Assembly: GCA_902524655.1 (NCBI GenBank)
Contig: CABZEG010000003.1
Span: 1-64,000, forward strand
Origin: an uncultured Alphaproteobacteria bacterium
Lineage (GTDB): Bacteria; Pseudomonadota; Alphaproteobacteria; Rhodobacterales; Rhodobacteraceae
Length of the DNA: 64,000 bases
Reading direction: 5' to 3'
Shown here: positions 42,922-47,107 of the stretch, one piece after another
How positions within the stretch are numbered: the first letter of the stretch is position 1
Layout of the letters: every line of letters starts with the position of its first letter
Notes under the pieces: model-generated
What the model saw: the letters and a program-made list of their open reading frames with translations, nothing else
Databases searched by the model: none
What the model was told of the DNA's origin: nothing
Program-made: the position numbers and the translations under genes

Positions 42922-45900
42922 CTACATCTCGCCATTATCCACTGCGTCTTTTTCGAGATTTTCAGAATCAGAACGTTCGTTCAGGATTTGCAAATCACGC
43001 ATAGCGGCAACCTTTCTGATTTCTCTTGCTGAGCCTCCTGTGCCGGCCGGTATCAACCTACCCACTATAACATTTTCCTTGAGACCTATAAGTTTATCTT
43101 TTTTACCTTGAGTTGATGCCTCAGTTAAAACTCTAGTAGTTTCTTGGAATGACGCTGCCGAAATAAAGCTTCTTGTTTGCAAACTGGCCTTAGTTATGCC
43201 TAGTAGCACCGGTCCACCTTTCGCTTGCTGCAAGCCTTGCTCTGCAGCTTTTTCGTTCGCTTCTAAAAACTCAGCCTTGTCTACCTGTTCACCTTTAAGC
43301 AATATAGTGCCCCCACTGTCTGTTATCTCCCACTTTTGAAGCATTTGTCGAACGATCACTTCTATATGCTTATCGTTTATCTTCACGCCTTGTAGCCTGT
43401 AAACATCTTGGACTTCGTTAATCATATATTCTGCCAACGCTTCTACGCCCATTATTGTTAGGATATCATGTGGAGCGGGGTTACCCTCCATGATATATTC
43501 ACCTTTTTTTACAAAATCTCCCTCTTGAACAGGTATGTGCTTTCCTTTAGGGACTGTATACTCGACTGCTTCGTCCTCGTCTCCATCAGGTACAACAGAA
43601 ATAATTCTTTTGTTTTTGTAGTCTTTTCCAAAATGCACATATCCGTCTTTCTCCGCAATTATTGCATGATCTTTAGGCCTTCTTGCTTCAAACAATTCAG
43701 CTACTCGAGGCAACCCACCTGTAATGTCCTTAGTTTTTGCTCCCTCCCTTGGAATTCTTGCTAATACATCACCTGGCTGGATCTCAGCTCCATCCTCAAC
43801 TGACATGATTGCGTCAACTGACATGGGATGAACGGCGGGATTACCGTTATCAAGCTTCACTGGTTCTCCAGATTCTTTGTCAACGATTATGATCTCTGGT
43901 TGTAACGAGTTACCTTTGTTTGAAGATCTCCAATCTGATACTATTTTCTGTGAAATTCCAGTAGCATCGTCGACATCTTCTCTTACTGAAACCCCTGGTA
44001 TCAAATCAACGTATTTTACTAAACCACCTCTCTCAGCAATTATAGGAAGCGTGTATGGGTCCCACTCAAAAAGCTTCTCGCCAGCAGAGATCTTTTGCTT
44101 GTGTTTAACGTAAAGTTTAGTCCCATATGACAGCTTGTGGGAACTGAGAACAACACCTTTGTCGTTATTTATTGTAAGCTCCATTGAACGGCTGGTTACT
44201 ATCTCTTCGGCCTGACCGTTTGAAAGAATATTGGCGTTATTGAATTCTACTATCCCACTGTGATTGGATTGTACAAATGATTGTGAACCTCCTTGAGCTA
44301 TGCCTCCTATATGGAAAGTTCTCATCGTGAGCTGGGTGCCTGGCTCACCAATCGACTGTGCAGCAATGATACCAACAGCTTCGCCCGGATTTACTGTAGT
44401 GCCCCTAGCCAAATCTCTTCCATAGCACGTTGCACATATCCCATCTTCAGCTTCACAAGTCAGTGGTGACCGAATTTGCACTTTCGCGATATCCGCTTTT
44501 TCAATTAAATCAGCAATGCGCTCGTCTATCATCATGCCTTTACTACAGATAATATCGTTATTCGCTGGATGTATTATATCCTCTGCTGCTATTCTTCCTA
44601 GAACACGCTCAGACAGAGTTGCTACCACTTCGCCATCACTAACGGCTGCTTCACACTTAATTGAAGTTTCAGTCCCACAATCATGAATTCTAATAATACA
44701 GTCTTGAGCCACATCAACTAAGCGCCTTGTCAGATAACCTGAATTAGCCGTCTTTAACGCGGTGTCTGCCAATCCCTTCCTTGCTCCATGCGTTGAGTTA
44801 AAGTACTCTAATACTGACAAACCTTCCTTAAAGTTTGCTATTATCGGGGTCTCAATTATTGCTCCGGAGGGTTTTGCCATAAGGCCTCGCATTCCACCTA
44901 ATTGCTTCATTTGAGCCGGTGAGCCCCTGGCACCTGAGTGTGCCATCATATAAACAGAGTTTGGTTCTAATTCAGATCCATCTTCATCCTTCTTAGTAGA
45001 AGAAATATCAGCCATCATTGCGTTCGCAACCAAATCTGAACATTTTGACCAAGCATCCACAACTTTGTTGTACTTCTCTCCTTGTGTAATCAACCCGTCC
45101 ATATACTGCCTCTCAAAATCTTTGACTTGGTCCCTAGTCTCATTTACGAATTCCCATTTTGTATCAGGTATAACCATGTCATCTTTACCGAAAGATATTC
45201 CTGCCTTAAATGCCTCATGAAAACCGAGTTGCATTATTTGATCGCAGAATATAACGGACTCCTTTTGACCGCAGTGCCTGTAAACAGTATCGATTACTTC
45301 ACCAACTTCCTTTTTTCTTAAAAGTCGATTCACAATTTCGAATGGAGCTTTGTGGTTTCTTGGAAGAAGTGCTCCTAATCTTAGCCTACCAGGTGTTGTT
45401 TCGAACCTCTTAAAAAATGTTGCTCCCTCACTATCTATTTGAGCGACCCTTGCCACAATTTTTGAATGCATATTGACTATGCCCGCTTCGAGAGCATGCT
45501 CCACCTCGTCCACGGAAGAAAAGACCATCCCCTCTCCTACTTGTCCATCTCTCATTAGAGAAATATAGTATAGCCCCAGAACCATATCCTGTGATGGTAC
45601 AATAATTGGCTTACCATTGGCTGGGGATAATACATTATTTGTCGACATCATTAAAACACGAGCCTCAAGCTGAGCTTCTAAACTTAAAGGCACATGAACT
45701 GCCATTTGATCACCATCGAAGTCGGCATTAAACGCAGAACAAACCAAGGGGTGAAGGTTAATTGCTTTTCCTTCAATCAATACCGGTTCAAATGCCTGTA
45801 TTCCAAGCCTGTGAAGTGTAGGCGCTCGATTTAAAAGCACAGGATGCTCTCTAATTACTTCCTCCAAAATATCCCATACTTCCGGTCTTTCCCTTTCCAC

Positions 45901-47107
45901 CATTTTTTTTTGCTTGTTTAACGGTAGAGGAAAGTCCACGCGCTTCTAATTTTGAATAAATGAAGGGTTTAAAAAGCTCTAACGCCATTTTTTTTGGCAA
46001 TCCGCACTGGTGTAGTTTTAACCCAGGACCTGTAACGATTACCGAGCGTCCCGAAAAGTCGACTCGTTTACCCAAAAGATTCTGTCTAAAACGACCCTGT
46101 TTCCCTTTAAGCATATCTGAAAGGGATTTCAACGGTCTTTTGTTCCCTCCAGTTATCACTCTTCCACGTCGTCCGTTATCAAAGAGAGCATCAACTGATT
46201 CTTGTAGCATTCTTTTTTCATTTCTAATTATAATATCGGGAGCCTTTAACTCCATTAAACGTTTCAACCTATTATTTCGATTTATAACTCTTCTATAAAG
46301 ATCATTAAGATCAGAGGTGGCAAACCTTCCACCGTCCAATGGAACCAAAGGTCTTAGCTCGGGCGGAATAACAGGGATCACCGTCATAATCATCCATTCA
46401 GGTTTATTGGAGCTTCCTCTAAAGTTTTCGATAAGCTTTAGTCTCTTTATAATCTTCTTTGGCTTAAGTTCACCGGTAGCCTCCTTAAGTTCTTCTCTAA
46501 GCTTTTCAGCTTCTGACTCGACATCGATTGCCATAAGCATTTCTCTTATTGCTTCCGCACCAATTCCTGCTTGGAAAGCATCTAAGCCATACTGATCTTG
46601 TGCATCTAAATATTCTTCTTCCGAAAGCAATTGTCCTACCTTCAAATCTGTCAATCCAGGCTCTATCACTACATACTGCTCAAAGTATAAAATTCTTTCT
46701 AAATCTCTTAGCGTCATGTCTAACATCAGGCCAATTCTTGACGGCAGAGATTTCAAGAACCAAATATGCGCTACCGGTGAAGCAAGCTCAATATGCCCCA
46801 TTCTTTCTCGCCTTACTTTTTGTAAAGTTACCTCGACTCCACACTTTTCACATGTAACCCCTCTGTACTTCATTCTCTTGTACTTGCCACAAAGACATTC
46901 ATAGTCTTTAACAGGCCCAAATATTCTGGAACAAAAGAGGCCGTCTCTTTCGGGTTTGAATGTACGATAATTAATCGTTTCAGGCTTTTTAATTTCTCCA
47001 AATGACCAACTCAATATCCTCTCTGGCGAAGCAATAGAAATTCTTATTTCATCGAAAGTCTTGAGTGTTTGTGGTTTGCCAAATGGATTTGTTATTTCTT
47101 TATTCAT
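42922..47107 (-). CDS. rpoC: RNA polymerase beta' subunit, frameshifted in an A9 tract
   Basis: Two overlapping ORFs form one beta' subunit. The upstream frame (47107-) runs from [20 protein letters not shown] through the zinc site [20 protein letters not shown] to [16 protein letters not shown], then drifts to a stop at 45851. The downstream frame resumes at [21 protein letters not shown]. The switch is an A9 run on the coding strand (plus 45903-45911); A8 would give a 1394-residue protein, the expected size. The downstream part has the Mg2+ site [12 protein letters not shown], the trigger loop and the C-terminal domains. The gene is essential, so a sequencing error or slippage rescue is more likely than loss. 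Confidence 0.95.

Follow-up and report, generated by a model that had tools for sequence, protein, structure and literature searches.

An extra A in a poly(A) tract splits rpoC in a draft marine Rhodobacteraceae genome and is probably a regional homopolymer error

Split rpoC genes exist in cyanobacteria and plastids. Frameshifts at poly(A) tracts have been described in the endosymbiont Blochmannia, where rescue was inferred partly from the sharing of some of the frameshifts between species (PMC3017870). Experiments with out-of-frame reporters and E. coli RNA polymerase gave no deletion rescue on any of the poly(A) runs tested (PMC6260861). A survey of E. coli and Buchnera found no frame-restoring transcript error, and at A/T runs insertions were more frequent than deletions (PMC5574713). 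Here, we describe an rpoC gene whose reading frame is broken by one additional A in a poly(A) tract, and we compare it with these systems.

The window, the whole 64,000-nucleotide stretch that was analysed, belongs to a draft assembly that totals 1.77 Mb, is spread over 72 contigs and is 71% complete. The host is a member of a marine Rhodobacteraceae genus with a GC content of 37% and is not an insect endosymbiont. In a scan of named genomes its nearest relatives were uncultured marine Alphaproteobacteria and Rhodobacteraceae, many of them with AG- isolate names, which we take to denote ocean single-cell genomes.

In this assembly rpoC is distributed over two open reading frames on the minus strand (Table 1). 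The tract at the break is T9 on the plus strand and reads GC-A9-TGG on the coding strand, in the context CAAGC-A9-TGGTGGAAAGG. The upstream frame runs ~17 residues beyond the tract and then stops, and the GTG start of the downstream frame is an artefact of ORF calling. Both RNA_pol_Rpb1 domain 1 and the NADFDGD motif are present, identifying the product as beta'. When RpoC proteins of congeners were aligned to the locus, they matched in two parts, each in a different frame, and the parts met at the A9 tract, with ~98% identity over residues 1-401 and ~92% over residues 396-1393. The sequence-only reading had claimed that two beta' frames join at GC-A9-TGG and that the joined product has 1394 residues. 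The sequence, the ORFs and the congener alignments bear out the junction, and the lengths of the pieces give the same total (398 codons, AKK and 993 residues counted from the ATG after the tract). A second, intact rpoC was not found in the assembly (71% complete), which holds one copy only.

Table 1. Positions of the rpoC features and of the companion breaks (window positions unless stated otherwise)
Feature	Position	Strand	Remarks
A9 tract, frame break in rpoC	45903..45911	-	sequence; relatives; unique in own genome
N-terminal rpoC ORF, 418 aa	45851..47107	-	~401 real beta' residues and a short out-of-frame tail
PF04997 (RNA_pol_Rpb1 domain 1) match in the N-terminal rpoC ORF	46076..47062		300.8 bits
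C-terminal rpoC ORF, 1005 aa	42922..45939	-	includes the NADFDGD catalytic motif
Control poly(A) tract in rpoC, CC-A8-TGG	45988..45995	-	encodes PKKM, in frame
argD-like class-III aminotransferase, A6	59687..59692	-	five bases in congeners; pieces 59661-59978 and 58784-59725
Threonine synthase (thrC), one extra A	contig position 66586-66593		just past the window end, same contig
coxB (cytochrome c oxidase subunit II), one extra A	contig position 70596-70601		just past the window end, same contig

Two long frames that overlap by 89 bases could also mean that beta' is truly split in this organism, either as two polypeptides that depend on a new start or through ribosomal frameshifting from one frame into the other, and the split rpoC of cyanobacteria and plastids offers a general precedent. 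However, the break sits within a conserved block, a -1 ribosomal shift would lead into the wrong frame where +1 is needed, and no relative has a split gene. No obvious Shine-Dalgarno sequence was seen upstream of either the GTG or the ATG of the C-terminal piece. We consider a genuinely split beta' to be extremely improbable.

The sequence-only reading had also proposed that the same site be compared in close relatives. A match to rpoC was found in 19 of the 22 genomes of the genus, counting the host. Among the 18 other congeners with the gene, one copy is cut by a contig end and 17 have uninterrupted frames of 1398-1402 codons, compared to 421 open codons in the host. The homologous tract has eight bases in every one of these 17 readable congeners, as pure A8 in 12 and interrupted by G in five. 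The frameshift is thus not shared by these congeners, as it might be in a slippage-rescued gene, and the view of A9 as a trait of the lineage is unsupported. At the family level, 72 of 80 loci read through the site without interruption as far as NADFDGD and have >350 residues upstream, and in the other eight the upstream sequence is too short for continuity to be judged. Beyond the genus, KK is mostly followed by L or I (AKKLV or AKKIV), so the run of A that leads into a Met codon is in essence peculiar to the genus. Conservation of the tract across the family was rejected on these grounds. Shortened rpoC open frames (386-1280 codons) were also observed in four genomes of the family (G116, G135, G151 and G181), with contig ends and frameshifts as candidate causes.

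The coding sequence on either side of the tract shows strong purifying selection. Before the tract, pN/pS was 0.014-0.018 (0.014-0.024 in relatives), and after it ~0.06 (0.041-0.048 in relatives), which leaves room for no more than a slight loss of constraint downstream. Of the positions at which the rest of the genus is invariant, the host has a residue of its own at 0 of 398 in the N-terminal part and at 3 of 443 in the C-terminal part, all three conservative. Low pN/pS and few unique residues indicate that the fault is limited to the length of the homopolymer and that the gene is not decaying; a general decay of the region was rejected on the same evidence. Base substitutions in the region were not raised, so poor sequence quality alone does not describe it; this counts against a technical error.

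The genome was surveyed for similar breaks by comparing 847 kb, about half of it and unevenly spread, with stretches of three congeners. In this survey 352 genes were intact, and each of four others was interrupted mid-way by one A too many in a coding-strand A tract. The four are rpoC, an argD-like gene, thrC and coxB, all of which are intact in the congeners G014 and G021; Pfam PF00202 matches both pieces of the argD-like gene. All four breaks fall inside 25 kb of the contig (45.9-70.6 kb). Between 45 and 72 kb, 4 of 26 genes are broken and 22 are intact, compared to 330 intact and 0-1 broken elsewhere, so that unrelated genes carry a like indel in one stretch while the rest of the surveyed sequence is clean. 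The Fisher test on this clustering gave 2e-5, and 1e-4 when one doubtful case elsewhere was allowed. Apart from that case, several frameshift candidates elsewhere were left uncounted, as they fell on the starts of genes or on genes of low conservation. Judged by reading frame and relatives, two of the four broken tracts are expected to hold only five A. Within intact genes of the host, the survey counted A/T runs that break nothing, 126 with eight bases and 35 with nine.

Natural mutation or a tolerance of slippage would act genome-wide, with the longest tracts as its main targets. Insertions of one type packed into 25 kb, some of them in A5 tracts, suggest instead that this stretch was less reliably amplified, sequenced or assembled. 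The A9 in rpoC is very probably a regional homopolymer error that arose on the way from cell to consensus. At least four single A's would have been added to A tracts in one 25-kb stretch during amplification, sequencing or assembly, and whole-genome amplification, homopolymer miscalls and thin local read coverage are candidate causes. A single technical cause would account for all four breaks, those in A5 tracts included, although A5 tracts are rarely miscalled in Illumina data, which would count against a technical error if that platform was used. In the organism itself, rpoC is most likely ordinary and intact, with an eight-base tract. The observation is real, but unusual biology is most likely absent. 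Of the two interpretations offered from the letters alone, the consensus error has gained from the eight bases in 17 congeners and from three more single-A breaks nearby, whereas the evidence goes against an essential gene that depends on slippage.

The insertion may alternatively be genuine in the sequenced cell or strain, as a recent slip in an A8 tract that is possibly lethal or soon lost and is carried by a single cell or a minority strain. Such tracts are prone to mutation, both halves of rpoC are otherwise undamaged, and the single-cell style AG- names of many congeners would fit one cell's private mutations having passed into a consensus. The clustering argues against this: four independent insertions in 25 kb, two of them in A5 tracts and all in core genes, against 0-1 in ~330 genes elsewhere, are implausible for a genome-wide process. 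A genuine mutation is therefore unlikely.

Transcriptional slippage would leave the gene functional despite A9 if RNA polymerase dropped one A or added two in some transcripts, the changes in length that restore the frame, and so yielded enough full-length beta'. The conserved downstream frame and the length of the tract would suit such a mechanism, as would the precedent in AT-rich endosymbionts such as Blochmannia (PMC3017870). A9 is long enough in principle, yet the tracts at two companion breaks would hold about five A, too few for slippage to rescue these A5-to-A6 changes. The reporter experiments with the E. coli enzyme gave no rescue by deletion at any of their poly(A) runs (PMC6260861), and insertions dominate over deletions in transcripts of A/T runs (PMC5574713). 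Furthermore, the host is not an endosymbiont, and A9 occurs in none of the 17 readable congeners. We find a slippage-dependent rpoC very unlikely. More doubtful still is a self-referential fidelity loop, in which a marine alphaproteobacterium with an out-of-frame A9 in rpoC would rely on slippage by the very polymerase that the gene encodes. If slippage did operate here, the supply of RNA polymerase would be governed by the enzyme's own fidelity, a striking arrangement.

The contig carrying rpoC (C3) is itself a mosaic. Identity to G014 and G021 is mostly 80-85% over its part from ~23 to 68 kb, where rpoB and rpoC lie, compared to mostly 86-92% in the left flank and ~90% in the right flank. 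Over most of the ~23-68 kb part, G014 and G021 are ~88-96% alike. A similar alternation of identity was seen on contigs C1, C7 and C11, suggesting recombination among congeners or, less likely, a mixed assembly. The ~23-68 kb part was likely acquired by homologous replacement, with another lineage of the genus as the donor. Most of the frameshift cluster, though not all of it, falls within this divergent part.

Together, these results advise caution: when an essential gene looks broken in a draft assembly from a single cell or a metagenome, its neighbours should be considered with it, and here the cluster of like errors is more telling than rpoC itself. The locus resembles the rpoC1/rpoC2 arrangement of cyanobacteria and plastids in having two reading frames for beta'. 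In contrast to that arrangement, it lacks a spacer and any obvious separate start signals, none of its relatives is split, and its frames simply meet at a homopolymer. With the poly(A) frameshifts of Blochmannia and Buchnera that are thought to be rescued by slippage, it shares a single-base indel in a conserved and apparently essential gene. It differs from them in that the host is no endosymbiont, the A9 is unshared, a deletion rather than an insertion is needed, and there are companion breaks in A5 tracts, confined to 25 kb of the surveyed sequence. Compared to the homopolymer indel errors of draft single-cell and metagenome assemblies, base substitutions are not raised here, but the locus is like them in its single-base length faults, clustered in one part of a contig, in genes that are intact in relatives.
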